Assembly (NCBI GenBank): GCA_021734325.1
Contig: JAIPJF010000013.1
Coordinates: forward strand, 1 to 64,000
Reading direction: 5' to 3'
Source: Fidelibacterota bacterium
GTDB taxonomy: Bacteria; Fidelibacterota; UBA8477; JABMPR01
DNA: 64,000 nt
The notes below the pieces were generated by a model that worked only from the letters and a program-made list of their open reading frames with translations, made no database searches and was not told the DNA's origin. Of this stretch, positions 30,555 through 53,100 are shown in pieces. A program made the translations under genes and the position numbers. The number at the start of each line of letters is the position of its first letter. Within the stretch, counting starts at the first letter, position 1.

Positions 30555-30785
30555 TGTTCGATCCCCTCTTTTTTAATTAAACCAACTTGTCTATTTACAA
30601 TTCACGCTAGAAAGTGATAATAATCAAGCCAAACAGGTCCCCCACGGAATCCCAAGCTATTGTTTTTAATCATAGAAATTATTCTCAATAATGCAAAAAG
30701 CAATATGATGATTAACTTTACAGCAATTCAGCTATAACAAGTGATTTACGTTTTTAAAAATAAAGCCAACATTAATTTGAGAACC

Positions 30786-31763
30786 ATGCTCTACGATCAA
30801 TACAGATATAAGCAAATCATGTGCTCACTTCGAATTGAGGAAGTGATAGCTCTGGTCTTCATCATTCCGACCCTTATGATTCGAGTTTATGCGTTTCTGG
30901 ATTTATCAGATGATCAGTCACTCCCTGGCATGGGCAGAGATGAGAATCTGTGGTGGATCGCCTTGATTTCTATACTTACCATCTGGTTTTTTGCAGCACT
31001 TTTGAGCAGGGCTGAGAATAAAATCTTCAAGGTGATGCGAGATTTTGCTCCCTTTCTGTTTGTGATTGCCATTTTCGCTAATATCCAGGTTCTTATTTAT
31101 TATGTGAATCCCCATGATTTCCATTTCGCTCTGCAAGATCTGGAACAATGGATATTTGGAAACCAACCAACAGTGAGACTGGAGAGAATAGTCCATCCAT
31201 TACTCACTGAATGGTTCGCGTTTTCGTATATGAGTTATTATTGGATAACCCTGGTCTTGTTGATCATGCTGTATGTCAACAAGCAGGAAATAGCCTTTAG
31301 AAAGACGATGTTCACAATGATCATTTCGTACTATCTGGGATTCCTGGGTTATGTGTTATTCCCTGCTGCGTCTCCATACCTGGTCATCCCGCATCAATAC
31401 ACAGTCGATATCTGGAAGAATACCTCTGTATGTTCAGAGCTAGCTCAGTGGATTGTCAGTTTATCACCAGTAAGAACCAGAGATGCTTTTCCCTCGATGC
31501 ATAATTCCATTACCCTGCTGACGATGATTATGGCCTGGCGTTATCACAGACCGCTGTTTTGGGTCTTCTTACCTCTGGCCATTTCCCTCCCCGTAGCTAC
31601 CCTTTATCTGCGATATCATTTCGCTGTCGACGTTTTAGCAGGTGTAGGGGTCACTTTTTTAGCCTTGTATCTTTCACCGCTTCTGGAGAGCTGGTGGACT
31701 GGGGTGCAGAGCGAGCGTGAAAACTTGCAAGGGGTTGATGAATCCATGGATATCAGAACATGA
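30786..31763 (+). CDS. AUR1-like PAP2 membrane enzyme, paralogue A
   Basis: An integral membrane protein of about 325 residues with five or more helices. It has the lipid-phosphatase/inositol-phosphorylceramide-synthase (PAP2_3) active site: AFPSMHNSITLLTMIMAWRY, then YLRYHFAVDVLAG, giving the paired His and Asp. ATG 30786 is preferred because the paralogue at 38174 aligns from the following LRIEE block; GTG 30741 is the upstream alternative. Candidate substrates are phosphatidylinositol phosphate (as phosphatase) or phosphatidylinositol plus a lipid acceptor (as head-group transferase). The stop overlaps the next ATG (ATGA). The upstream region has an inverted repeat, ATTATT-CTC-AATAAT, at 30678-30692. 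Confidence 0.82.
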   Translation: MLYDQYRYKQIMCSLRIEEVIALVFIIPTLMIRVYAFLDLSDDQSLPGMGRDENLWWIALISILTIWFFAALLSRAENKIFKVMRDFAPFLFVIAIFANIQVLIYYVNPHDFHFALQDLEQWIFGNQPTVRLERIVHPLLTEWFAFSYMSYYWITLVLLIMLYVNKQEIAFRKTMFTMIISYYLGFLGYVLFPAASPYLVIPHQYTVDIWKNTSVCSELAQWIVSLSPVRTRDAFPSMHNSITLLTMIMAWRYHRPLFWVFLPLAISLPVATLYLRYHFAVDVLAGVGVTFLALYLSPLLESWWTGVQSERENLQGVDESMDIRT

Positions 31764-32206: not shown

Positions 32207-33181
32207 TTATCTGATGGTAGCAAGATTTTCAAGAAGATACCCCCAGCCCCGATCATCCAATAGTTTAGACATTTTTTGATACCCGAGACCATAATCCGGA
32301 TCCCGATCCGCCATCATACTGGACAAGCGAAATTTTGAATACCTGGAGTTATCCGCTTGATATACCAATTCACTTCCCAGATTACAAAAGCCTTCCCGGA
32401 TGTCTGATCTTAAATCCAGGTCGTTTTCAAACAGATAAATATGCATCAATTCATGAGCCAGTACTGCTCTGAACATGATCAAGGGTAATCCAGTCAGAAT
32501 GTAAATGTGACTGTTTCTGGAGATGATTTCACCGTTTCGCGTTTGAGCGCTGTGATCTGTAAATCCCTGCATGGCGTCCGAATAGGTTTTTGAAATGGAT
32601 CTCAGCGTGGTCTTATTCACGAGGGATATGGGAATCTCACGGGGAAGGCCATCAATTCCATGATATGCCAGCAGATCTCTTACATAGCTCAAAGAGGTTT
32701 CAACCACATAAGTATCTTCAACCGAACTCTCATTGCACAAACTGCAGATATACCGGCCATCGTTTAAACTGAACCCGCCTCCGGTAAGACTTTCACAGAT
32801 CAATCTGCCACAGGAATTGCATTCGTGGAGCTCCTGACGGTGAAAGGCGTGAAAAGCATTACCCCAATAATCATTATAGTATTCTCCAATGAGTGGTTCG
32901 CCGCAGATATCACATTTTGCAAGGATATGGTCCCGATAGCATTCAATGTGATAATGCTTGCCGTCCATGACATTGTGTTGACCATCAATAGGCTTATCGC
33001 AATAATCGCATCTTATCTGAACATGCTCACGGAAACAGACCTCATGATAGGATTTCCCATCAACGATGAGATACTTCCCGGTAATAGGTTTACCACAGTA
33101 CTCACATTGAATATCAGCCATCAAGCTTGAAAACAAGCCCAGGGAAATGAGAAGAAAAATCAGTTTGGGTGAAAAAAGCAT
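32207..33181 (-). CDS. Secreted LIM-like zinc-finger/DA1-like metallopeptidase
   Basis: A 324-residue protein with a signal peptide (about 1-22) followed by four Cys/His zinc-binding clusters of LIM type: C26-C29 with H46-C49, C58-C61 with H78-C81, C90-C93 with H111/H114, and C121-C124 with C146-C149. The C-terminal half has LAHELMHIY with H243-E-x-x-H247 and a downstream E263 in IREGFCNLGSELVYQ, as in the peptidase domain of plant DA1. It is thus probably an exported zinc peptidase using LIM-like fingers for substrate binding. It lies convergent to the GNAT gene. Substrate unknown. LIM domains are mainly eukaryotic, so the combination in an exported bacterial protein is noteworthy. Confidence 0.82.
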   Translation of the reverse strand: MLFSPKLIFLLISLGLFSSLMADIQCEYCGKPITGKYLIVDGKSYHEVCFREHVQIRCDYCDKPIDGQHNVMDGKHYHIECYRDHILAKCDICGEPLIGEYYNDYWGNAFHAFHRQELHECNSCGRLICESLTGGGFSLNDGRYICSLCNESSVEDTYVVETSLSYVRDLLAYHGIDGLPREIPISLVNKTTLRSISKTYSDAMQGFTDHSAQTRNGEIISRNSHIYILTGLPLIMFRAVLAHELMHIYLFENDLDLRSDIREGFCNLGSELVYQADNSRYSKFRLSSMMADRDPDYGLGYQKMSKLLDDRGWGYLLENLATIR

Positions 33182-38173: not shown

Positions 38174-39175
38174 TCATGAAACTTTTTCACAGACGCCAAA
38201 TACAGGAGGACTCTTTGATATAATTCCTCGCTTTACCTGATATGCCCTCCACCAGATATCGATCTTTGGCGTCAGATACCAGACCAGGGTCACCAGGAAT
38301 AATCCAGCGTAAATATCAATGATATAATGATGTCGTAGATATACGGTCGCAACAATCAATGAGATACCAATAGGCAGAAAGACCCAGAATAGCAGTTTAT
38401 GAAATCTCCACGCCATTCCCAGAGTCAGAAAGGTGATCGTACAATGGAGTGATGGGAACGCCCCTCTTGCAGATGAAGAGCTGATATTGACAACTTTTCG
38501 GGCGCTGTCTGAGATGAGCGAGGTGCCTTTGAAAATATTGATGGTATACTGATCAGCGAGGGCAAGCCTGGGCGGGGCAGCCGGGAAAAGGATATAGAGC
38601 AAATAGCCCCCATAGTAGCACAACATCATCGTGAGCATGACGGTGCGGAACTGTCGGTCTTCCTTCTTGTAGTACATGTACATGACCAGAATGACTGTGA
38701 TCCAGAAATAGTTCATATATGCGAAAGACAGCCAGTCAGTCAACCATGGGGAGTAAAATTTCTCAGCCCACACCGTTGGTGAAACACCAAACATCCATTC
38801 ATCGATGGCATTAAGCTGAAAATGGACATCATTTGGATTGACAAAATGAATGGTGTCATGAAGGTTTGTGTAAATCGCAATGGCAAAAATAAATGGAGCC
38901 ACTTCCCGAATGAACTTGAAGATCCTTTTTTCAGGGCGAAACCATAGATACCAGTAAAAGATCACCATGAGTAAAAGTGTGACAAGGATACGCCAGATGC
39001 CGCCTTCAATCTTAACCGATCGTTCCACCGGAGAGGTGTAAAAATACCAGTTTGCTCTCAGAGTTATCAATATTGAGGGGATGAGAAAAACCAGGAAGAT
39101 GATTTCCTCAATTCGTAAGCTTTGTAAACGGCGTTTCCAGATTTCCATGTTTGAATTGCTTTCTATCTTCGGCAA
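38174..39175 (-). CDS. AUR1-like PAP2 membrane enzyme, paralogue B, in the inositol-lipid operon
   Basis: A 333-residue polytopic membrane protein, paralogous to that at 30786 (shared LRIEE, HFVNPNDVHF-like and PAPF blocks). Active site: GAFPSLHCTITFLTLGMAWRF, then YLRHHYIIDIYAG, the pattern of AUR1/inositol-phosphorylceramide synthases, with His nucleophile and His/Asp pair. Such enzymes swap a head group from phosphatidylinositol to a lipid acceptor or remove phosphate. It ends the operon behind inositol-3-phosphate synthase and a CDP-alcohol phosphatidyltransferase, starting 15 bp after the gene between. That context favours an inositol-lipid substrate. Phosphatase activity on PI-phosphate is the alternative. 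Confidence 0.85.
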   Translation of the reverse strand: MPKIESNSNMEIWKRRLQSLRIEEIIFLVFLIPSILITLRANWYFYTSPVERSVKIEGGIWRILVTLLLMVIFYWYLWFRPEKRIFKFIREVAPFIFAIAIYTNLHDTIHFVNPNDVHFQLNAIDEWMFGVSPTVWAEKFYSPWLTDWLSFAYMNYFWITVILVMYMYYKKEDRQFRTVMLTMMLCYYGGYLLYILFPAAPPRLALADQYTINIFKGTSLISDSARKVVNISSSSARGAFPSLHCTITFLTLGMAWRFHKLLFWVFLPIGISLIVATVYLRHHYIIDIYAGLFLVTLVWYLTPKIDIWWRAYQVKRGIISKSPPVFGVCEKVS

Positions 39176-39190
39176 AGAGGAATGTTATTG

Positions 39191-39571
39191 TTAGTCGCTG
39201 GGTATTTCTACGATACTGACAAAACCCAAAGCGGCCAGTGTATAAATCGAGCACCCCAGTACTGCACCGATCCCTACAGCCCAGATGGTTTTTCTGGTTG
39301 AAAGAACCATCACGCGAGCGAGTGCCATCCCAGTCCAGACGCCACCGGAAAAAGGAATCGCAGTGATAATCAGGGGTCCCAGCCATCCCAGTTGAATCAG
39401 TTGTGCACTCCATGCCCCGGTTTTTAGCTTTTCCTGAAATCTCTCGGATCGTTCTTTCAAGGCTCGAGTCCAGTTAAATCGATCCAGGGACCAGGTGAAT
39501 AGAAATTCGACTACTGCAATAAGTATGAATTCGCATATGACAACAATAATTGAGATTTCAATAATGCCCAA
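39191..39571 (-). CDS. Small multidrug-export-like (PF06695-type) membrane protein
   Basis: A 126-residue membrane protein with three or four helices in this form. AIPFSGGVWTGMALARVM, then an IGAVLGCSIY helix, matches the conserved C-terminal half of the so-called small multidrug export family, whose true role is unclear. The TTG start at 39571 probably truncates it. The frame stays open upstream to about 39667 and encodes LGKKVAFPLGILLGLG, like the family's PLG block; a CTG at 39667 or ATT at 39664 behind GAGGAAGAG could be the real start, overlapping the previous stop. It lies inside the inositol-lipid operon. Confidence 0.7.
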   Translation of the reverse strand: MGIIEISIIVVICEFILIAVVEFLFTWSLDRFNWTRALKERSERFQEKLKTGAWSAQLIQLGWLGPLIITAIPFSGGVWTGMALARVMVLSTRKTIWAVGIGAVLGCSIYTLAALGFVSIVEIPSD

Positions 39572-39663
39572 ACCAAGGAGAATTCCCAGAGGGAAGGCAA
39601 CCTTCTTGCCCAGGACGTATTGGGCTAAGGCTACGGAAAAAACAGCACCGATTTCCCGGGAAA

Positions 39664-40275
39664 TCAGCTTTGCTCTTCCTCAACTTGTTTGACCACCATC
39701 AGCCGTTGATAGGCAGTGTAATTGGTTCCGATGGCCAATATGATAATTCCCAGTTGCAGAATTATTTCAGAGCCCCAATATTCCACACCAATTGGATTCA
39801 GGATAGCAGCAAGGGAAAGAATAACGAATCTTTCAAAACGTTGCATCATTCCCACCAGGCGATCCACGCCAAGCGATTGGGCTCGTGCGCGAATATAACT
39901 GACCATCATAGATCCCATGAGGGCAAAAAGGGTCCAGAAGAACATGGAGCTGTCTCTGAAGTGAAAGGTGATCCCCATAAAGACAAACATTTCCACATAT
40001 CTGTCCAGACTGGAATCAAGGGTTGCTCCAAATTTACTGGAACGCTCACCTAAACGCGCAACAGTTCCATCAAGGGTATCCAAAATTCCACTGATGAGCA
40101 ACACAACGCCCCCCGTGGCGCTAAAGCCAACGAGGAAAAAGAAAGCGGATATCACTCCTATGATCGACGCGGTAAAGGATATGATATTTGGATTCTTACC
40201 TACCAGGGGTGTTCTGCTTACAATGGCTTTGACGCCAGTGTAATAGGCGTCAACCAGACCCTCTCTCAAATGCAT
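39664..40275 (-). CDS. CDP-alcohol phosphatidyltransferase, probable phosphatidylinositol phosphate synthase
   Basis: A 203-residue inner-membrane enzyme with six predicted helices. The complete signature D-x2-D-G-x2-A-R-x8-G-x3-D-x3-D is present, from DTLDGTVAR through FGATLDSSLD (about residues 67-92), binding two metals and the CDP-diacylglycerol. N-terminal NPNIISFTASIIG is typical of the PgsA/PIP-synthase group. Being 15 bp after the gene for inositol-3-phosphate synthase, it most likely joins inositol phosphate to CDP-diacylglycerol. Phosphatidylglycerophosphate synthase and di-inositol-phosphate synthase are alternatives, the latter less likely without the CTP:inositol-phosphate transferase. 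Confidence 0.85.
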   Translation of the reverse strand: MHLREGLVDAYYTGVKAIVSRTPLVGKNPNIISFTASIIGVISAFFFLVGFSATGGVVLLISGILDTLDGTVARLGERSSKFGATLDSSLDRYVEMFVFMGITFHFRDSSMFFWTLFALMGSMMVSYIRARAQSLGVDRLVGMMQRFERFVILSLAAILNPIGVEYWGSEIILQLGIIILAIGTNYTAYQRLMVVKQVEEEQS

Positions 40276-40290
40276 GATGATCCAGCAAAT

Positions 40291-41601
40291 TTATTCATAG
40301 CTATCATAATATTCATGCCCCAGGTGAGTGATCAATTCTTCTCCCATCATCCATCTTAATGTATTCTTCAGCTTGGTGAGCTGGATAAATAAGTCATGCT
40401 CAGGATAGAGATTCGGAGCCACCATTGGCGCTTTGAAATAAAAGGAAAGCCATTCCTGAATCCCCCGCATATTATTGCGAAGAGCCAGATCAGTGAAAAG
40501 CACCAGATCTAATACGATAGGTGCTGCAAGGATGGAATCCCGACAGAGAAAATCAATCTTAATCTGCATCTTGTAACCCATCCAGCCAAAGATATCAATA
40601 TTATCCCAACCTTCTTTTTGGTCCCCACGAGGAGGGTAATAATTGATCCGAACTTTATGGTAAAGGTCCTTATAGAGATCCGGATAGGTGTCAGGTTGGA
40701 GGATGTAGTCCAGAGCACCCTTTTTAGAGACTTCTTTGGATCGAAACGACATTGGATCATCCAATACTTCACCATCTCGATTCCCCAGAATATTGGTTGA
40801 GAACCAGCCTTCAACGCCGAGCATCCTGGATTTTAGTCCAGGCGCCAGAATGGTCTTGATCAGAGTTTGTCCTGTTTTGAAATCTTTCCCTGCGATGGGA
40901 AGTCCCTGTGCCATAGCCAGCTCCTGAATGGCCAGAGTGTCCACAGCCAAATTTGGGGCGCCCATTAAGAAGGGGACGCCACTTTTTAGCGCGGCATAGG
41001 CATAGATCATACTGGGAGCAATCAGAGGATCATTGTTCCTCAGGGCAGCCTCAAATTTTTCCAAACTACTATGGATCTCTGTCGGTTCAATATAGGCTTC
41101 AGTACTTGCACACCAGATCATGACATCGCGTGTGGTTCCATTTGTTTTTCTGAAATTTTCAATATCCTCCATGAGCATTTCAGCAAGCTGCATTTTGGTG
41201 GCGGCTGATTTTTTATTTGGACCATCTATGTTTTTTACATACTCGTGATCAAAAACTGCACTCATAGGTTTTATTTTTTCCAGAGCTTCTCTGGCTTGTT
41301 CTAGATCCGGGGGGCTTAAAACCTGAGCGTTGCAGGCTGCCTGATACGCATCTTCCTTAAAAATATCCCAGGCACCAAAAACCAAATCTGACAATTCTGC
41401 AAGAGGAACAAAGTCCTTGATCTTCGGACTACGATTTTCTGTGCGCTTTCCAAGCCGAATGGTGCCCATCTGGGTTAAACTTCCGATGGGTGGTGTTTGT
41501 TTTTTAATAATGGCATCAACACCAGCAATGAATGTTGTTGATACAGCCCCTAAACCAGGTATGAGTACACCCAGCTTCCCCTTTGGTGCTTTAAGATCCA
41601 C
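40291..41601 (-). CDS. ino1: Inositol-3-phosphate synthase (MIPS/INO1)
   Basis: Converts glucose 6-phosphate to inositol 3-phosphate with NAD as internal redox cofactor. About 436 residues. The NAD-binding N-terminus is KLGVLIPGLGAVSTTFIAGV, followed by the family blocks MIYAYAALKSGVPFLMGAPN, GKDFKTGQTLIKTILAPGLK, STNILGNRDGEVL and the C-terminal KMQIKIDFLCRDSILAAP. I start at GTG 41601, behind GAGAGGAG at 7 bp; TTG 41616 lies inside that site. It is the first gene of the operon and should feed the CDP-alcohol phosphatidyltransferase. Confidence 0.93.
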   Translation of the reverse strand: MDLKAPKGKLGVLIPGLGAVSTTFIAGVDAIIKKQTPPIGSLTQMGTIRLGKRTENRSPKIKDFVPLAELSDLVFGAWDIFKEDAYQAACNAQVLSPPDLEQAREALEKIKPMSAVFDHEYVKNIDGPNKKSAATKMQLAEMLMEDIENFRKTNGTTRDVMIWCASTEAYIEPTEIHSSLEKFEAALRNNDPLIAPSMIYAYAALKSGVPFLMGAPNLAVDTLAIQELAMAQGLPIAGKDFKTGQTLIKTILAPGLKSRMLGVEGWFSTNILGNRDGEVLDDPMSFRSKEVSKKGALDYILQPDTYPDLYKDLYHKVRINYYPPRGDQKEGWDNIDIFGWMGYKMQIKIDFLCRDSILAAPIVLDLVLFTDLALRNNMRGIQEWLSFYFKAPMVAPNLYPEHDLFIQLTKLKNTLRWMMGEELITHLGHEYYDSYE

Positions 41602-44519: not shown

Positions 44520-46445
44520 ATGCAAAAAAATGTGAAAAACAGAAATAAAAAACTGATAGAGGTTCTAGGGCCCGTTGAAAATCTCGAAAGTTATGTCCGC
44601 TCTGATTGGTGGCGACACCTGTTCAATGCTGCATATCTGCGAACAGATGGTGATGTTGTCGAAGATCAGGATATTACGAAAAATGAAGTCAACATTTTTC
44701 TTGAGGCTCTTGATCTGCCAACGGATGCAAACATTCTGGATCTTTGTTGTGGTCAGGGTCGGCATGCGCTTGAAATTGCCACAAGGGGGTATAAGGCGGT
44801 CGTGGGACTTGATCGTTCACACTATCTTATTGATCGGGCGAGAAAGGTCAATAGATCTCTCGGATTGAATGTCACCTTTAAGGAAGGTGATGCTCGCAGA
44901 CTGCCATTTTCAAATGATACTTTCACGGCAGTGATTATTGCCGGAAATAGTTTCGGATATTTTGATTCTGCAGAAGATGATATTGCCATCCTGAACGAAG
45001 TCATGCGTGTGCTTCAACCAGAGGGAAAGCTTCTGATCGATATCACAGATGGCACTTATATGCGCGATTCTTTTCAGCCAAGGAGCTGGGAGTGGATAGA
45101 CAAAAATTATTTTGTGTGTCGGGAACGATCGCTTTCAGCGGACAGTGAGCGCTTGATATCAAGGGAAGTTATCACCCATGTGACTAAGGGTGTGATTGCA
45201 GATCAGTTTTACGCTGAGAGACTCTATTCACAAGAAGACCTGCATAGATCCTTTTCCAAGGCAGGATTCATAAATATTACCAATTCTGCCAATGTCTTCG
45301 CAGATTCGAAACGTAACCAGGATCTGGGTATGATGGCCCAGCGGATGATCGTAACGGCCACAGCCAAGAAAGATTGGTCACCGGTCAAGAAACATTCTGC
45401 TGAAAAAACGGCTGTACTCGTTTTACTGGGAGATCCAAGTAAATCAGATATAGTTAAGCCTGGATTGAGTTTTGATACCGACGATCTTTTTACGATCAAC
45501 GAACTGAAAAAAGCGTTAGCTGATCTATCAGCATATAAATTTACTTTTCTGGACAGACATGACAGCCTTATCAAGGATCTGCAAAAATACCAGAATAAAT
45601 GTGATTTCGTTCTAAACCTGTGTGACGAGGGCTTTAATAATGAAGCAACCAAAGAACTGCACATTCCGGCAATTCTTGAGATGATGGGTTACCAGTACAC
45701 AGGGGGAAATCCACAGTGTCTTGCCTATTGTTATGATAAATCCCTCGTCCGTGGAATTGCCCAGGAAATGGACATTCCAGTACCCCAGGCATTTATTGTC
45801 AAACCGGAGGATTTTCATTTTGTTGAATTTCAGTTGGTCTTTCCAGTCATTGTAAAACCAAATTTTGGTGATTCAAGTATGGGTATTCATCAGGAGAATG
45901 TTTGTTATGATCTCCCTGCACTGGAGAGCGCCATTTTAAGGATCAGGCAGGATTTCGGTCAGAATAAACCCATCCTGGTTGAGGAATTTTTAAGGGGCAA
46001 GGATTTGAGTGTTGGTGTGATAGGAAATCCTACGACCTCTTATTCTATTCTACAAATTATTGAAGAGGATTATTCAGCTCTGCCGAATGATCTTCCCAGA
46101 ATTTGCGGTTATGAAGCCAAATGGGATCCAAAATCACCTTATTGGAACATTAAATCCATTCCAGCAGAGTTGGATGAAGATGTGGAACGTTTTTTAGGTG
46201 CCAGTTGTCTGAAATTGTTCAAGCGTTTGGATTGTCGAGACTATGCCCGCTTTGACTGGCGAGTAGATGATAATGGAACCCCACGTTTATTGGAAGTTAA
46301 CCCCAATCCTGGCTGGTGCTGGGACGGACATCTAGCCAAAATGGCTGGATACCAGAGCATTTCTTACAAGGGAATGCTAGAAGAGATACTGGAAGCATGC
46401 AAAACACGTTTGGTCCTAACTGACCGTGTAAGGGCTTCCTCCTAA
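44520..46445 (+). CDS. SAM methyltransferase fused to a D-Ala-D-Ala-ligase-like ATP-grasp enzyme
   Basis: A 641-residue two-domain enzyme. Residues about 60-200 are a class I methyltransferase: motif I ILDLCCGQGRHALEIA (D74 onward), EGDARRLPF and the motif-IV-like AVIIAGNSFGYF. Residues about 300-630 form an ATP-grasp fold like D-Ala-D-Ala ligase: FVLNLCDEGFN, YTGGNPQCLAYCYDKSLVR, FPVIVKPNFGDSSMGI (ATP lysine and glycine loop), LVEEFLRGKDLSVGVI, RFDWR and RLLEVNPNPGW (metal site). It presumably ligates an amino acid or peptide and methylates the same molecule. Substrate unknown. Standing alone after an intergenic gap, it may belong to a small-molecule or cell-wall modification. Confidence 0.85.
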   Translation: MQKNVKNRNKKLIEVLGPVENLESYVRSDWWRHLFNAAYLRTDGDVVEDQDITKNEVNIFLEALDLPTDANILDLCCGQGRHALEIATRGYKAVVGLDRSHYLIDRARKVNRSLGLNVTFKEGDARRLPFSNDTFTAVIIAGNSFGYFDSAEDDIAILNEVMRVLQPEGKLLIDITDGTYMRDSFQPRSWEWIDKNYFVCRERSLSADSERLISREVITHVTKGVIADQFYAERLYSQEDLHRSFSKAGFINITNSANVFADSKRNQDLGMMAQRMIVTATAKKDWSPVKKHSAEKTAVLVLLGDPSKSDIVKPGLSFDTDDLFTINELKKALADLSAYKFTFLDRHDSLIKDLQKYQNKCDFVLNLCDEGFNNEATKELHIPAILEMMGYQYTGGNPQCLAYCYDKSLVRGIAQEMDIPVPQAFIVKPEDFHFVEFQLVFPVIVKPNFGDSSMGIHQENVCYDLPALESAILRIRQDFGQNKPILVEEFLRGKDLSVGVIGNPTTSYSILQIIEEDYSALPNDLPRICGYEAKWDPKSPYWNIKSIPAELDEDVERFLGASCLKLFKRLDCRDYARFDWRVDDNGTPRLLEVNPNPGWCWDGHLAKMAGYQSISYKGMLEEILEACKTRLVLTDRVRASS

Positions 46446-46890: not shown

Positions 46891-49800
46891 ATGAGCATTG
46901 ATCTTAATAAAGTATTCGACCTGAACAGGAATGTCCTGATCGAAGCCTGCGCCGGTGCCGGCAAGACATGGTTGTTGTCAAAGCGTTATGCCGCGATCAT
47001 GGACGATTTTGCCCGCCAACATGCAGAAAATCCGCAGGTCCGACTGGATGCGTCAAATATTCTGGTCCTGACCTTCACTCGCAAGGCAGCGGCTGAAATG
47101 TCTGGACGCATATATGCTGACCTGAATCAACTCCTGAATGATCAGGTGCTGGAAAATGTACCAGCCAATTTTGGCCAGCATCTCCGGATATCAGATCAAA
47201 GCTACAAAATGCATTTGCGGTCGACCTATTCCAGAAATGCCATCTCAACCATTGATTCATTCTGTACTCAGATATTGAGAGACCAGGCTGAGAGATTAGA
47301 TGATATAGACCCGGAATTCAGGATCCAGGATGAAGCAGATACACAGCGGATGGAACTGGAGACCTGGGAGAACTTTCTGCGGGAACGTAGTCGAAACCAG
47401 GATAAAGATCTAAAAATTCTGCTGGATCACCTGTCGGAATTTCACCTGACTCAATACGTAAAGAAATTTTTATCCCACGCTCAATTGATGATGGATTGGC
47501 TTGTAGATCGAAAATCACACTCTCCAGGCGAACTGGTCGAACGGTTTAAACAAGAGCATCCACTACCAGTATCCCTCCAGAGAATCAATGACCTGTTGCT
47601 TGATCTGGTTGCCAGTCTTCCGGAAGCTGAAGCAATACTCAAACCTGATAGTTCACAATACACCAGATTGATTGATCTGAGAGCCTTTCTGAATGAATCA
47701 CCAGAAGATGTGTATCTCTATGAGCTGAACCTTATCCATCATGTCCGGCAAATCGGCTTAAAGAGCACTGGCACAGAGTATCATACAAAACCACAGGTCC
47801 ATGGAACTGTCTGGCCCAAAGAGTGGCTTCCCGAGATAAAAAGCCGACTTCAGACCTTCCTGGACGAATTACCTGAGCTGATACCCTTTGAAACACTGAT
47901 GAATGATATCCCTAGCATATGGGACCTGGAAGCGTGTACCGTTCACCATCACCTGGCAAAATTCTTTCTGGATTATTGGGATGTATTGAATCAAAGACTT
48001 AAAAGGGAAGGTGTACTCAGTTTTAACGAAGTGATTCTACAAACACATCAACTGCTTCAAAATCCAGCAGTAGCTGCTCATTACGGACAACGTTTCCAGC
48101 ACATTCTGATCGATGAATTTCAGGACACCAATGATATCCGTTGGGATATCGTCCGGCTGATTGCTCAAAATAAGCAGGCTGTGCTCCGTGATAGGGGGCT
48201 TTTTATTGTTGGGGATACCAAACAATCCATTTATCGATTTAATCAGGCTGATGTTCAGGTCATGAATCGGGTAAGGCGCATGATTGACTCAAGTGGCGGA
48301 TCAATATTGAATGCTGATGAAACCTTCCGGTCCTCAAGCAAATATGTTAAGACAGTGATCAATCCATTGAGTAGCGTTGCCTTTCCTTCTGCTGAGGAAA
48401 AAGATGGGCTGGAACTATTCGAAACTCATTTCAATCCGACCGCTGTCTCGAAGGACAGCCCCCTTACGGAAGCACAGCACCAACTGGCGCGATGTGAACT
48501 GAGTGCAGTACTGGAGGGTGGCGATTCCAGAGGGATGAAAGCAGATATTTACCATACGGCGGATCTTGCCCAGAATTGGCTCACATGGATGGACCAAAAT
48601 GCAGTTCCGGCCGGCGATGGTCCATCGGTGGGTATCCTCCTCAGGTCTTTCAGCCATATCCTGGACTACATTCGAATTTTTACGGCAAAGGGTCTGGATT
48701 TCGAGGTCTTATCCAGTAAAGGCCTGTTTCAACAACAAGAGAGTTATGATATTTACCATCTGCTCAGTGTCCTGATCAATCCGCTAGATGATCTGGCGCT
48801 TGTGGGGGTACTCCGGAGTCCTTTCTTTGTTCTGACCGATGCGGAGATCCAGGAGCTTAGAGAATCGGCAGAAGATAATACCAACCCTGGCTGGGTCTGG
48901 TTCAATCTCCTGAAGCTTAGAAACGGACTGGCTAAAGAAATACAAAGCTGGCAAACGGAGTCGGCCAGACAGCCGGTAGATCGTCTTATAACACACATAG
49001 TAAGCAATAATGAAAGACAGCTGGGCTGGATCTCAGAAACAGGTGGGAATCTCCGTTTAGCGAATCTGAATCGTCTCATTCATTTGATCCATCAATTGTC
49101 CCTGGATGGATTGGGTCTTAGGGAAATTCATGAGTACTTCAAATTTCAAATTCAACATGGTGATGCCCCGCAAGCTGAATTGCCGGGGACGACACGAATT
49201 CAGATTCTTTCCATTCATAAATCCAAAGGTCTGGAATTTCCTGTTGTCATATTACCCAATCTTCAAGCGCCAGAAAAAAATGAAACCAGCGGCATATTCC
49301 TCGGCCAGGGTGATGACGGCCACTGGGAGGCTGGAATAAGCCTGGACACCTTGAAAACCAGCCCCAAAACCTGGTTGTATGAGCGTATAAAGACACGCAC
49401 CAAAGCAGAGGAATTAGCTGAGGACAAGCGATTATTCTATGTTGCCATCTCAAGAGCCCGATATGGTGTGAGTTTTGTTGCCAGAATTAATCCAGCGACC
49501 AAGCCCGGCAGCAATACCTGGTGGAAACGATATCTTCAACCTGTTTTTGATCTGGAGCTTGATAAGGATGCCATTCAGAGTGATCCAAGATCTGTTCAGA
49601 CTGAATGGGTAAATCGCTCGACACCGGAAATGGTCTATAATTTTATTCTGGGATCTGATCTTTTACAAAATGAATCGGTCAGGCCACCTGAAGCAGATAT
49701 AAATATTCAGCCACTTCCTGAATTAGCCCCTGCCTATCTCTACGAGGAGATTTCCCCACACACCATCATGAAATGGATGGATCCAAAGAGTTATCCTCAA

Positions 49801-52800
49801 AGCGATGAGAAAAAAATTGGGGAAGATCACGGGGAAGATACCAGGCCCAGGAAATTTGGAACCTTGCTGCATCGGGTGATGGAAATGTCGTGGTTTGATC
49901 AGGAGCAGCATGCAGAGGACATTCGATTATTTCTGGAAGGTCTGGACATAAGCGATACAAGTGTTCAGCAGGTGTTCCTGTCAGATCTTTCAGATTGCCT
50001 GTCGATATATCGAGGAAGCGATCTGGCAGAAAAATTGGCTGGACTCACCGAATCCAACAAGCTTGCTGAGTTGCCCGTATTCGGGTATTTACAAAGCAAA
50101 ACTCGAGTCTATAAGGTTTCCGGGATCATAGATCTCCTGTACTATGATGGCAATGAATGGATTGTCCAGGATTACAAATCCGATAAAGAGCTTCCCCCTG
50201 ATCCTGAGGAAAATGACTACCCCTACTGGTACCAGATACAGACCTATTTATGGATGCTCAAACTACTCTACGGGATCGAAGCACGAGGTGAATTATATTT
50301 TAATCGTTTTGACCAGCTCATTTCAATCGACTACGACGAAGATCTTTACTTCTCTCGATTAGGCAAGACAGAGCAGGGACGTGGACTCAGACCTCTATTG
50401 CCTTCCAATACTGAGCTTGACCCCGGCATCCAAGGGATACTCAAACGGATAGATCCAGAATTAAGTGTCATCCTGATAGAACCTACAAAAAACAGTGGTG
50501 AGCGATTGGTACAGGCATTGGCTCAGAGTGGGTTCAACAAGCCGAGAATCCAGGTTATGACGCTGAATGAGCTACGCAATCTGACATTGCCGGAAGGCAG
50601 GAGTTTAACGCCATATCTCACCCGTTTGGCTGTTGCCGATTTATTGGGAAGAGATCTCAAATGGGGCGTCATTAATCGACTCGGTGCTGCTTTTTATAGA
50701 GCAAGCCAGGGTGAAGTGGTCATAGATTCAAAACAGGAACTGTATAAAAAGTTTATTCTATGGTGTGACCAGCATAAAATAATACTCCCTGGAAAATCAA
50801 GGGAGCTTTCAGGGATTTCGAGTGATACAAAGATCATTATTGACTCTATTCATTCGACCGCTCCAGCTGATTATGCTTTCCTGGCGAGGCTCGCAGAGCA
50901 AAATGAGACCATCTTTCTCAATCCGCTGAAAGAGGGGAGCGCCTCCGCAGGGTTTGCCATGTCTATTAGGGACTGGGCAGATCAGGATGAAATGCCCGAC
51001 AAGCAGCCCAGGCACAGCTATACGCCATGTTTTTCTGTTTATGAAGAAGTTGTCCTGAGTGCTCATCATATTCGCAATCTTCTCGCAAAAGGTGTGGTAC
51101 CAGCTAATATTCTGGTGGCTGTTTCTTCAATGGAGCGCTATATCCCATCCATTAAACGCGTCTTTAGTGACCTCGGAATATCCGTGCGTTTAAGCAAGCG
51201 CGAGCCAGTCATGGAACGCCCCGTCACCCATTTGGCCTTTGCCCTGATCCAGGGTCGTCTGAGGCGTCATCTGACCTGGGATATGGCGATGTCAGTTTGG
51301 CTTCATCCCCTCGTTCTTCCGCCAGGCACTGAGGGGAATGATCGATTGCGTTTGGACATTGAAGCCCGCAAACTGGGTATCACACTTTTTGATGAGTCCC
51401 TGATAGATAACCTACGGTCGTCCAGCCTGAAACAAGCTGCGAAAGAATTATTGGCTTTTATTTCCGAAGTATGGCGAAGCAAGCAAAAAGGCAGCCTGCT
51501 TGAAGAAATTGAATGGCTCAGCCAGATCCTTGGCAGTTTTCAATTTACACATCGATTGGAGCCCGGCAGTGTCGCCTCCAAAGCGTATACTTCCTTAAAG
51601 AATGCCCTGGATGGTATCAGGAATGATTGGGATAGATATCTCAAGCAGAAGGGAAGTCTGAGCGATTTAAATCGAGAGTTGCGAGAACGTCTGAAGGGGG
51701 TGGAGGTTGCTTCGGCACAGCAGGGGTTTGGAGTAGATGTGATCTCCATACTTGATACTCTGAATCTGAAGAATAAGCATTTGTTGGTTATGGGATTGAC
51801 AGAAGGGCAGTTTCCCCTGGCGCCGGACAGTAATCCCTACCTGGTGCAATCTGAACTAAATCCCTGGTTCCTCAATCTGTATTTATTCAAACAATGGTTA
51901 AGACGGCCAGCAGGGAGCCTGCATCTGACCGCACCCCTCCGCAATGTGGATGGTGCCAGTTTAGAGCTAAGTACCTTCTGCCAGTACTTGATCAAAAACG
52001 ATTATCCAAAACTACCCATCGTCAGTCGGGACCAGTATCTGCATTATCTGGCCGGCAAACTCATTCCGGAAGCGAATTCAAAATATCAGGTTCGGCATAA
52101 TGCAGTCCTGACTGATGCCGGAAAGGGTGATTGGTACGGAAAACTCGGGCCCCATGATCAACGTTCCTTCGATCAGATCTCAGCTTCCGCCTTTGATGAA
52201 TTGATCAAATGTCCACAGCGCTATTGGTACAGTCGGATGCTCAGGCTTGAACCGGCAGAAACGGACATTACGGAGCGAAATGAGATAGAGATCGGGAACC
52301 TGGTTCATCAGGTATTGGAAAAATTTGGCAAGGCAGGTAGCTTTCTTCTGGTTGGCAGCGATCTGAATGCCGCCCTTGTGCAACTGGAAACCATTGCGCT
52401 ACAACATCTCAAAGATAAAGATGTGAAACCTGAGCTGGACCTTCTGGATAGCAAATGGAGTGAATTGTATTTCAAAAACTTCTCTGATCCTGATCAAAAT
52501 TTATTAGCGGCCATGCTTCAAATAGAAGCCGATGCACTTTCCAGTTATGGCGATATCGGTCTTCATGAACAGGCCTTTGGATATAGTGATGATCTCGAAT
52601 CCTGGCCATCCATCAAAATCTCTGATGAATCCATAACATTATCCTTGGTGGGCAAAATTGACCGTGTCCTAGTTAGCGGGGAGCATGTTTGGGCTTCGGA
52701 TTACAAAACAGGTAAGGTTGATATTAAGGATAGTCAGGATTTCTGGACAAGCCAGATGCTTTTTTATTTTCTGGTGTTAAAATCCCGTTTCCCTGACAAA

Positions 52801-53100
52801 AAGGTTGTTCTTACCTATGATCAAGTCAGGGCATTCAAGGAAAATGAAGTTGGGCTGAAAGGGTACCTTGGTGATGTTGAGTCGGAGAGCCCCATCATGT
52901 CCACGGTGAGATCAAAAAATCAATTGCTGGCGATTGGTGACCAGGGTGATTGGTCTATTAAACGAATCCAGGCAGAGACCCTTGCCTGTGCCCAACATCT
53001 CGCAGACAATGAGTTTCCCCTGACCAGTCGCGATGAAGATAAAGCCTGCGCCTATTGTCATTTTGAAAGGATATGCCGTAAGACGGCCCTGCCTCGATAG
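46891..53100 (+). CDS. Single-chain AddA-AddB fusion: helicase-nuclease for double-strand break repair
   Basis: A 2069-residue protein joining two normally separate subunits that process DNA ends for RecA. The AddA half (1 to about 1180) has Walker A ACAGAGKTW (19-27), DEFQDTND from 408, GDTKQSIYRFN, IHKSKGLEFPVV, and a nuclease with LLHRVM, GIIDLLY and D1094-Y-K1096. The AddB half (about 1185-2069) starts LSVILIEPTKNSGERLVQAL, has a second nuclease (VHQVLE, GKIDRVL, D1937-Y-K1939) and four Cys of the iron-sulfur clasp: C1774 (KCPQRYWY), and C2053-x2-C2056-x5-C2062. Both nucleases look intact. No stop interrupts the frame. The start at ATG 46891 is supported by the first motif. Confidence 0.9.
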   Translation: MSIDLNKVFDLNRNVLIEACAGAGKTWLLSKRYAAIMDDFARQHAENPQVRLDASNILVLTFTRKAAAEMSGRIYADLNQLLNDQVLENVPANFGQHLRISDQSYKMHLRSTYSRNAISTIDSFCTQILRDQAERLDDIDPEFRIQDEADTQRMELETWENFLRERSRNQDKDLKILLDHLSEFHLTQYVKKFLSHAQLMMDWLVDRKSHSPGELVERFKQEHPLPVSLQRINDLLLDLVASLPEAEAILKPDSSQYTRLIDLRAFLNESPEDVYLYELNLIHHVRQIGLKSTGTEYHTKPQVHGTVWPKEWLPEIKSRLQTFLDELPELIPFETLMNDIPSIWDLEACTVHHHLAKFFLDYWDVLNQRLKREGVLSFNEVILQTHQLLQNPAVAAHYGQRFQHILIDEFQDTNDIRWDIVRLIAQNKQAVLRDRGLFIVGDTKQSIYRFNQADVQVMNRVRRMIDSSGGSILNADETFRSSSKYVKTVINPLSSVAFPSAEEKDGLELFETHFNPTAVSKDSPLTEAQHQLARCELSAVLEGGDSRGMKADIYHTADLAQNWLTWMDQNAVPAGDGPSVGILLRSFSHILDYIRIFTAKGLDFEVLSSKGLFQQQESYDIYHLLSVLINPLDDLALVGVLRSPFFVLTDAEIQELRESAEDNTNPGWVWFNLLKLRNGLAKEIQSWQTESARQPVDRLITHIVSNNERQLGWISETGGNLRLANLNRLIHLIHQLSLDGLGLREIHEYFKFQIQHGDAPQAELPGTTRIQILSIHKSKGLEFPVVILPNLQAPEKNETSGIFLGQGDDGHWEAGISLDTLKTSPKTWLYERIKTRTKAEELAEDKRLFYVAISRARYGVSFVARINPATKPGSNTWWKRYLQPVFDLELDKDAIQSDPRSVQTEWVNRSTPEMVYNFILGSDLLQNESVRPPEADINIQPLPELAPAYLYEEISPHTIMKWMDPKSYPQSDEKKIGEDHGEDTRPRKFGTLLHRVMEMSWFDQEQHAEDIRLFLEGLDISDTSVQQVFLSDLSDCLSIYRGSDLAEKLAGLTESNKLAELPVFGYLQSKTRVYKVSGIIDLLYYDGNEWIVQDYKSDKELPPDPEENDYPYWYQIQTYLWMLKLLYGIEARGELYFNRFDQLISIDYDEDLYFSRLGKTEQGRGLRPLLPSNTELDPGIQGILKRIDPELSVILIEPTKNSGERLVQALAQSGFNKPRIQVMTLNELRNLTLPEGRSLTPYLTRLAVADLLGRDLKWGVINRLGAAFYRASQGEVVIDSKQELYKKFILWCDQHKIILPGKSRELSGISSDTKIIIDSIHSTAPADYAFLARLAEQNETIFLNPLKEGSASAGFAMSIRDWADQDEMPDKQPRHSYTPCFSVYEEVVLSAHHIRNLLAKGVVPANILVAVSSMERYIPSIKRVFSDLGISVRLSKREPVMERPVTHLAFALIQGRLRRHLTWDMAMSVWLHPLVLPPGTEGNDRLRLDIEARKLGITLFDESLIDNLRSSSLKQAAKELLAFISEVWRSKQKGSLLEEIEWLSQILGSFQFTHRLEPGSVASKAYTSLKNALDGIRNDWDRYLKQKGSLSDLNRELRERLKGVEVASAQQGFGVDVISILDTLNLKNKHLLVMGLTEGQFPLAPDSNPYLVQSELNPWFLNLYLFKQWLRRPAGSLHLTAPLRNVDGASLELSTFCQYLIKNDYPKLPIVSRDQYLHYLAGKLIPEANSKYQVRHNAVLTDAGKGDWYGKLGPHDQRSFDQISASAFDELIKCPQRYWYSRMLRLEPAETDITERNEIEIGNLVHQVLEKFGKAGSFLLVGSDLNAALVQLETIALQHLKDKDVKPELDLLDSKWSELYFKNFSDPDQNLLAAMLQIEADALSSYGDIGLHEQAFGYSDDLESWPSIKISDESITLSLVGKIDRVLVSGEHVWASDYKTGKVDIKDSQDFWTSQMLFYFLVLKSRFPDKKVVLTYDQVRAFKENEVGLKGYLGDVESESPIMSTVRSKNQLLAIGDQGDWSIKRIQAETLACAQHLADNEFPLTSRDEDKACAYCHFERICRKTALPR

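Follow-up and report, generated by a model that had tools for sequence, protein, structure and literature searches.

A conserved four-gene operon

What does a bacterium make with an AUR1-like enzyme encoded beside inositol-lipid genes when no sphingolipid synthesis is recognisable in its genus? This question is raised by four minus-strand genes at positions 38174–41601 of a 64,000-nucleotide stretch of DNA (positions 1 to 64,000 of contig JAIPJF010000013.1, assembly GCA_021734325.1, here called the window) from a marine Fidelibacterota bacterium, a phylum sampled here under the name Candidatus Neomarinimicrobiota. They encode an inositol-3-phosphate synthase (MIPS, INO1), a CDP-alcohol phosphotransferase (CDP-AP) resembling phosphatidylinositol-phosphate (PIP) synthases (designated PIPS), a small membrane protein of the PF06695 family, and an AUR1-like PAP2_3 protein (designated PAP2-A). 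The locus is a conserved inositol-lipid operon, and its involvement in inositol-lipid synthesis is well supported. It differs from the Bacteroides kind in its small membrane partner, in lacking PgpA among the clustered genes, and in having an AUR1-type enzyme although sphingolipid synthesis is not recognisable in the genus. Bacterial inositol lipids have been described mainly in actinobacteria and Bacteroidota (PMC9246714; papers cited by PMC number are drawn on for what their accessible parts state), and the locus represents a minimal conserved inositol-lipid gene set in Candidatus Neomarinimicrobiota. Among the papers listed by a literature search, in which subscription papers were thinly covered, none dealt with inositol lipids in this phylum, which is weak evidence of absence.

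The MIPS gene (40291–41601, 436 aa from GTG 41601, or 441 aa from TTG 41616) is separated by 15 bases from the PIPS gene (39664–40275, 203 aa), the stop of which is overlapped by the frame of the small protein (39191–39667, about 158 aa, starting at CTG 39667 or ATT 39664), and a further 42 bases lead to ATG 39148 of PAP2-A (38174–39148, 324 aa). An earlier note on this DNA had described four closely spaced minus-strand genes here, belonging to an uncultured lineage and including an exporter-like gene but no separate phosphatase. The open reading frames (ORFs), the Pfam matches and the CDP-alcohol signature pattern agree with this description, the lineage is indeed uncultured, the third gene is exporter-like by the Pfam name of PF06695, and no gene of the PgpA kind lies in the operon. 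The location given in the note stood, and two starts had to be moved, that of the small protein to a place upstream of TTG 39571 and that of PAP2-A probably to ATG 39148, where its homologues begin.

The phylum sample comprised 199 genomes, including 19 of the same genus as the window and three of a sister family of the same order (f2). Apart from the window genome, 16 genomes of the genus carry PIPS; 14 of them have all four genes in the same order, and in the remaining two (G065 and G088, the latter 72% complete) the cluster is interrupted by a contig end; thus, the arrangement is not due to chance. In the sister family, one genome (G015) has the operon with one extra ORF between the small-protein gene and PAP2-A, and in another (G025) the contig stops after the small-protein gene and PAP2-A is on a different contig, preceded by a portion of this extra ORF. 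PIPS is present in 27 of the 199 genomes, namely 17 of the 19 of the genus, two of the three of the sister family, one of family f16, five of family f3 and two with weak matches. In the two genus genomes without it, a contig breaks off in or near the cluster, within PAP2-A in G094 and about 600 bases past the PAP2 gene in G033. Within the genus, identity to the window proteins is 81–91% for MIPS, 82–87% for PAP2-A, 69–77% for PIPS (78% for one fragment) and 49–63% for the small protein (local identity, measured against the shorter ORF), so that the conservation of the terminal enzyme comes close to that of MIPS.

The best 80 of 586 MIPS relatives were also inspected with their surroundings, several of these loci being truncated at contig ends. 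The small-protein profile matched five (L077–L081), all from genus genomes of the sample; the PAP2 profile exceeded 500 bits in the same five and was weak (18–31 bits) in three more, while PgpA was found in five loci and PIPS exceeded 150 bits in 23. Given these 23 loci, lipids of the phosphatidylinositol (PI) type may be widespread outside the Bacteroidota. MIPS of the same type was seen in metagenome-assembled genomes (MAGs) labelled Acidobacteria, KSB1, Kryptonia, Gemmatimonadota and others (L082–L156), with PIPS in the fetched stretch in a minority.

Synthesis of inositol phosphate and phosphatidylinositol phosphate

The MIPS protein matches PF07994 (316 bits) and PF01658 (112 bits), and its closest solved structure, 7nwr, is named as an inositol-3-phosphate synthase and is presumably BT_1526 (530 bits over residues 7–428 of the 441-residue query). 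Both domains, the full length (homologues are mostly 434–436 aa) and the match to a solved enzyme place it in this family.

PIPS matches PF01066 (52 bits) and carries the complete D-x2-D-G-x2-A-R-x8-G-x3-D-x3-D signature, which also occurs in the three other CDP-APs of the genome and so does not tell PIPS apart. Its best NCBIfam models are three (archaetidyl/phosphatidyl)inositol-phosphate synthases, and the PDB entries that match it best are likewise PIP synthases, 6h53 and its relatives. Residues binding inositol phosphate have been named for the PIP synthases of Renibacterium and M. tuberculosis (Mt) (PMC4634129, PMC6506517), and PIPS retains the equivalents of Mt R94, S132, Y133, R137, R152, R155 and R195, K135 being replaced by Arg. 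These patterns are absent from the PgsA, the second CDP-AP and the PssA of the genome. In a tree of 29 CDP-AP proteins only 7 of 26 inner branches were starred, and one PIPS row (L050) was placed beside PgsA with support of 50/40; as the tree is poorly resolved, the assignment rests on the binding residues. A phosphatidylglycerophosphate synthase was considered for this gene and rejected, as the pgsA model scored 25 bits against 113–134 bits for the inositol-phosphate synthase models and the binding residues disagree.

One position in the lipid-facing part of PIPS is unusual. P153 of the Mt enzyme faces the lipid chain, and its replacement by Trp nearly abolishes activity while Ala has little effect (PMC4634129). 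The equivalent residue is Phe in all 17 PIPS rows of the genus, and in the 21 other rows it is Pro (12), Ala (5, both sister-family rows included) or Thr (1), the pattern being unmatched in three. Phe at this place may point to a different or unusual lipid donor.

PAP2-A resembles AUR1

PAP2-A matches PF14378 (PAP2_3) with 90.9 bits. An AlphaFold model was built from 21 sequences, PAP2-B rows (see below) among them, with a pLDDT of 76, and the top two Foldseek matches were both AUR1 (E 1.2e-3 and 1.7e-3, TM 0.57–0.67). With VIA-align, in which families outside the list compared may be kin as well, the model was closest to AUR1 9vj4 (Z 18.3, rmsd 3.7, 264 residues aligned) and 9ivc (Z 17.3, rmsd 4.1, 274 aligned), at 16–17% identity to the pair, and the alignments spanned nearly the whole model, N-terminal helices included; the phosphatases LpxE and PgpB gave Z 13.7 over 162 residues and 11.6 over 175, respectively. 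AUR1 was also reached, with weak agreement, by sequence profile (E 0.0014 and 0.002), and hhalign related PAP2-A to two Bacteroidota relatives of phosphoinositol dihydroceramide synthase with 96.7% probability over 227 columns at about 25% identity.

The motifs agree with this relationship. PSLH and HHYxxD are the catalytic motifs of AUR1 and phosphoinositol dihydroceramide synthase. PAAPPR, PSLH and HHYxxD are present in all PAP2-A rows, the Bacteroidota relatives having PAAPPW, PSLH and HHYxxD; the PSLH and HHYxxD stretches were aligned with those of AUR1, and H244, H283 and D287 are invariant across 21 PAP2-A and PAP2-B proteins. Canonical PAP2 phosphatases of the PgpB/LpxE type show the consensus KxxxxxxRP, PSGH and SRxxxxxHxxxD. 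The first of these elements was found in none of 42 PAP2_3 rows, and both PAP2-A and PAP2-B have AT instead of SR before the VYLR..H stretch, with PSLH or PSMH. The genome encodes three further PAP2 proteins: KxxxxxxRP and SRxxxxxHxxxD occur together in L213 (with PSGH) and in L214 (with PSNH), and L215 matched KxxxxxxRP alone. A phosphatase of the UppP/PgpB type as the closest kin of PAP2-A was therefore rejected, the AUR1 fold scoring higher and the phosphatase motifs being absent.

With helix borders adjusted by hand from the AlphaFold model, 18 Lys and Arg residues fall in the N-terminus, loops 2, 4 and 6 and the C-terminus (69 residues) and nine in loops 1, 3, 5 and 7 (98 residues). By this distribution the active-site loops 5 and 7 are predicted to be outside. 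PIPS enzymes act at the cytosolic membrane boundary (PMC4634129); if both placements hold, PI must cross the membrane.

The window contains a second, accessory paralogue, PAP2-B (30741–31763, plus strand), 44% identical to PAP2-A and matching PF14378 with 75.7 bits. It is divergently oriented and adjoins MIPS in 10 genus loci, is displaced in the window and in G020, and lies on another contig in G061. It was not found in G009, G045, G072 and G088, all of which keep PAP2-A, and its branches are longer.

The small PF06695 protein

The small protein matches PF06695 ("Sm_multidrug_ex") with 37.9 bits against a cut-off of 30.7, and two homologues score 43.6 and 48.2. Its homologues have about 40 extra N-terminal residues relative to a start at TTG 39571; 16 of 18 homologous ORFs are 163–172 aa long and the other two (110 and 126 aa) lie within longer open frames. 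Most homologues open with a stretch ending in AQYxLGKKxAFPLG, and the same stretch is present in frame in the window, where the frame is open back to CTG 39667 and overlaps the PIPS stop. From these alignments the true start is placed upstream of TTG 39571. No ATG, GTG or TTG occurs between the preceding stop and TTG 39571 in this frame, and a rare start codon (CTG or ATT) may be in use, or the assembly may contain an error here.

A high-scoring orthologue was detected in 19 of the 199 genomes (17 of the 19 of the genus and two of the three of the sister family), all of them PIPS-bearing, and two further genomes matched at E of about 6e-6 only. Drug export was rejected as the function of this gene, its sole support being the Pfam name, and the gene travels with PIPS. 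A published analysis linked PF06695 distantly to the DedA family (PMC7818093), to which undecaprenyl-phosphate flippases and the scramblases VMP1 and TMEM41B belong. No mention of PF06695 was found in the accessible text of a paper on DedA subfamilies (PMC10127716). In hhalign comparisons the small protein gave no signal with reversed DedA, PIPS, PAP2 or GtrA profiles, and PDB sequence searches had no useful outcome, returning ribosomal chains at E 0.7–0.9 or nothing.

When BT1524, the small GtrA-type protein of the Bacteroides cluster, was lost, total membrane contained less inositol phosphorylceramide (IPC) and more PI (PMC8791184). The position of the gene, its co-occurrence with PIPS, the topological need described above and the analogy with BT1524 together suggest that the PF06695 protein is a lipid carrier.

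Dephosphorylation of PIP and supply of ceramide

In Bacteroides the step from PIP to PI is performed by PgpA (PMC9246714). In the genus, PgpA was found once in 16 of the 19 genomes, as two fragments in one, and not in the remaining two; in the window genome the single PgpA gene overlaps pgsA on another contig, outside the operon.

Ceramide synthesis was sought through serine palmitoyltransferase (SPT), with a Bacteroidota-type model having a cut-off of 640 bits. The window genome has 11 places matching the broad aminotransferase family, of which the best full match to the SPT superfamily is Kbl, glycine C-acetyltransferase (671 bits, cut-off 493), the rest having been set aside by eye. No match at the level of SPT was seen in any of the 19 genus genomes: in 18 the model finds a single match, never above 344 bits, and in one it finds nothing. 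Ceramide synthesis by the known route is therefore probably absent from the genus. The three sister-family genomes reach 537–547 bits, and in two of their proteins that were scanned the SPT model is ahead of every non-SPT family by more than 100 bits (547 against 421), so that this family likely has SPT. The cut-off of 640 is passed by none of the 199 phylum genomes; eight of 14 control genomes match the model and one passes it. An SPT-like match of about 497 bits or more was seen in 43 of the 199 phylum genomes.

PAP2-A is 75–78% identical between the SPT-negative genus and the sister family. The choice therefore lies between an acceptor other than ceramide in both groups, a PAP2-A that is a hydrolase, and ceramide obtained from elsewhere.

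Proposed pathway and alternatives

It is proposed, with a probability of roughly 0.45, that the inositol phospholipid made by the operon donates phosphoinositol at the outer surface of the cytoplasmic membrane. By its family, MIPS would convert glucose-6-phosphate to inositol-3-phosphate, which PIPS, with its active-site residues, would join to CDP-diacylglycerol on the cytosolic side to give PIP. PI would then be formed by a phosphatase, for which the housekeeping PgpA, whose gene adjoins pgsA, is the probable candidate. The PF06695 protein would carry PI or PIP across the membrane, the weakest step of the scheme, and the outward-facing PAP2-A, as its fold and motifs suggest, would take phosphoinositol from PI through a histidine-linked intermediate and pass it to an acceptor alcohol. 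This acceptor is probably not ceramide in the genus, as no SPT was found.

The earlier note had arranged the reactions as inositol phosphate, PIP and then an AUR1-like PAP2 enzyme, and this order is borne out by the family matches, the PIPS residues and the AUR1 fold. It had also considered that the phosphatidyltransferase might group with phosphatidylglycerophosphate synthases and the PAP2 enzyme with undecaprenyl-diphosphate phosphatases. Although the tree is too unresolved to speak about clustering, the former enzyme has inositol-phosphate residues that PgsA, the second CDP-AP and PssA lack, and the latter resembles AUR1 rather than UppP or PgpB in fold and motifs, the structural comparison that the note proposed having given AUR1 as the nearest relative of the model. 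The product implied by the note, IPC, was not supported: the search for sphingolipid genes, likewise proposed there, detected Kbl as the best full match in the window genome and nothing at SPT level in the 19 genus genomes.

Several observations weigh against the proposed donor role. PIPS falls under every inositol-phosphate synthase equivalog cut-off (134 of 180, 124 of 350 and 113 of 170 bits). No Foldseek match of the PAP2-A model reaches E 0.001, by sequence profile AUR1 (E 0.0014) is little ahead of the B. subtilis phosphatase YodM (E 0.0024), and PAP2-A scores 24 bits with NF052609, the phosphoinositol dihydroceramide synthase model with an equivalog cut-off of 480, the two Bacteroidota relatives being likewise under it at 325 and 315. 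For the carrier, hhalign of the small protein with DedA profiles of the genus, from shallow alignments, gave no signal, its structure model (pLDDT 60) is too weak for a structure search, the argument through the PF06695–DedA link depends on PMC7818093, and Heaver et al. reported no lipid phenotype for BT_1524 by thin-layer chromatography (PMC9246714). The window genome is 84% complete, and since the sister family keeps the operon, a closely similar PAP2-A and a likely SPT, ceramide could be the old acceptor.

PAP2-A, or PAP2-B, might instead be the missing PIP phosphatase, and the operon would then make just PI. PIP has to be dephosphorylated, the operon is without PgpA, and the only PgpA of the genome overlaps pgsA; moreover, the solved PAP2 proteins in the VIA-align list are mostly phosphatases, and a hydrolase needs no acceptor, consistent with the high identity of PAP2-A across SPT-positive and SPT-negative genomes. 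However, PAP2-A is without KxxxxxxRP and SR, both of which L213 and L214 carry, and its match to AUR1 is nearly full-length, with the N-terminal helices. Furthermore, PAP2-A was not found at E ≤ 1e-10 in five PIPS-bearing genomes of f3, so that any enzyme dephosphorylating PIP there is a different one. On this evidence a phosphatase seems rather unlikely. A pathway of the Bacteroides type, in which PAP2-A makes IPC and ceramide comes by an unrecognised or unsampled route, would fit the closest fold, AUR1 in its ceramide complex (9vj4), the motifs common to the two Bacteroidota relatives and the likely SPT of the sister family, even if this last remains under the cut-off; with no SPT-level gene in the 19 genus genomes and PAP2-A far under its equivalog cut-off, it is considered improbable. 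It is more doubtful again that inositol phosphate from this gene set goes into an envelope or lipid-linked glycan instead of a membrane lipid, lipid carriers then being the substrates of PIPS and PAP2-A: no glycosyltransferase was recognised in the conserved gene set and the PIPS residues suit inositol phosphate as acceptor, even though the capsule of B. thetaiotaomicron also receives minor inositol (PMC9246714) and the distant DedA relationship of PF06695 touches on undecaprenyl-phosphate flippases (PMC7818093).

The donor role is thus retained as the preferred reading. Its more specific form is advanced only tentatively, at about one chance in three: a bacterial AUR1-type enzyme uncoupled from sphingolipids, to which a dedicated PF06695 carrier, its gene lying between those of the inward-facing PIPS and the outward-facing PAP2-A, supplies PI for outer-face transfer of phosphoinositol onto an acceptor other than ceramide; in Bacteroides, GtrA would occupy the equivalent slot. 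As the AUR1-type enzyme is separated from ceramide synthesis, both acceptor and product may be new, and the PF06695 partner makes it testable how PI of the inner face reaches an enzyme of the outer face.

Comparison with known systems

The closest parallel is the BT_1522–BT_1526 region of B. thetaiotaomicron (PMC9246714, PMC8791184), in which MIPS, a PIP synthase, an AUR1-like PAP2 protein and a small membrane protein, whose role is likewise uncertain, are also clustered. In contrast, its PgpA-type PIP phosphatase has no counterpart within the operon described here, its GtrA small protein is replaced by the PF06695 protein, and no SPT was found in this genus; genes of the GtrA and PgpA kinds were seen in a Bacteroides relative (L156). 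With AUR1 (9vj4, 9ivc), PAP2-A shares a near whole-length fold match and the PSLH and HHYxxD motifs, but identity is low and ceramide synthesis was not found in the genus. The actinobacterial PIP synthases (6h53, 5d92) have the same CDP-AP signature and an inositol-phosphate site of the R155/R195 type and differ at the lipid-facing P153 position, which is Phe in this genus. To our knowledge, actinobacteria have no AUR1-like partner in the PIP synthase cluster. As to the PF06695/DedA superfamily, PF06695 is over cut-off in the window protein and the two homologues tested; the gene described here is fixed in an inositol-lipid operon, and shallow alignments gave no profile match to the DedA proteins of the genus.

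Other PAP2_3 proteins and neighbouring genes

PAP2_3 proteins were found at E ≤ 1e-6 in 26 of 44 searched genomes with this kind of MIPS, one being an f16 genome of Candidatus Neomarinimicrobiota. Eighteen loci were fetched, in two of which (L240 and L241) the ORF selection missed the gene, and a P(A/S)xPPR, PSLH and HH signature was present in two of the remaining 16. One, L226 (G217:C17:3000-13000), from a MAG labelled Bdellovibrio sp., has a tandem pair of AUR1-like PAP2_3 genes, and the other, L228 (G237:C3:5000-14000), a single one; P(A/S)xPPR, PSLH and HHW occur in one protein of the pair and in that of L228. No MIPS or PIPS was found in these two stretches. Kin of PAP2-A therefore also occur outside inositol-lipid clusters, and their presence alone proves nothing.

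More distant PAP2_3 proteins (E 1e-10 to 1e-25) were seen in 17 phylum genomes outside f1, f2 and f16 (in f9, f5, f13 and f24) that have no PIPS match, and five that were read have PSTH and YHY motifs. Judged from the listing, 14 of these 17 genomes also have an SPT-like match above 500 bits, and the proteins may be sphingolipid head-group enzymes.

Among the other ORFs of the window, 32207–33181 (minus strand) encodes a secreted-looking protein with paired Cys-rich motifs, which we take to be LIM-like, and an HELMH zinc-peptidase-like motif, and it adjoins the operon in many loci of the genus. By eye, the ORF at 44520–46445 (plus strand) resembles a methyltransferase fused to an ATP-grasp domain like that of D-Ala-D-Ala ligase, and the 2069-aa ORF at 46891–53100 (plus strand) appears to be a fused helicase-nuclease with an AddA-like N-terminus and an AddB-like C-terminus.

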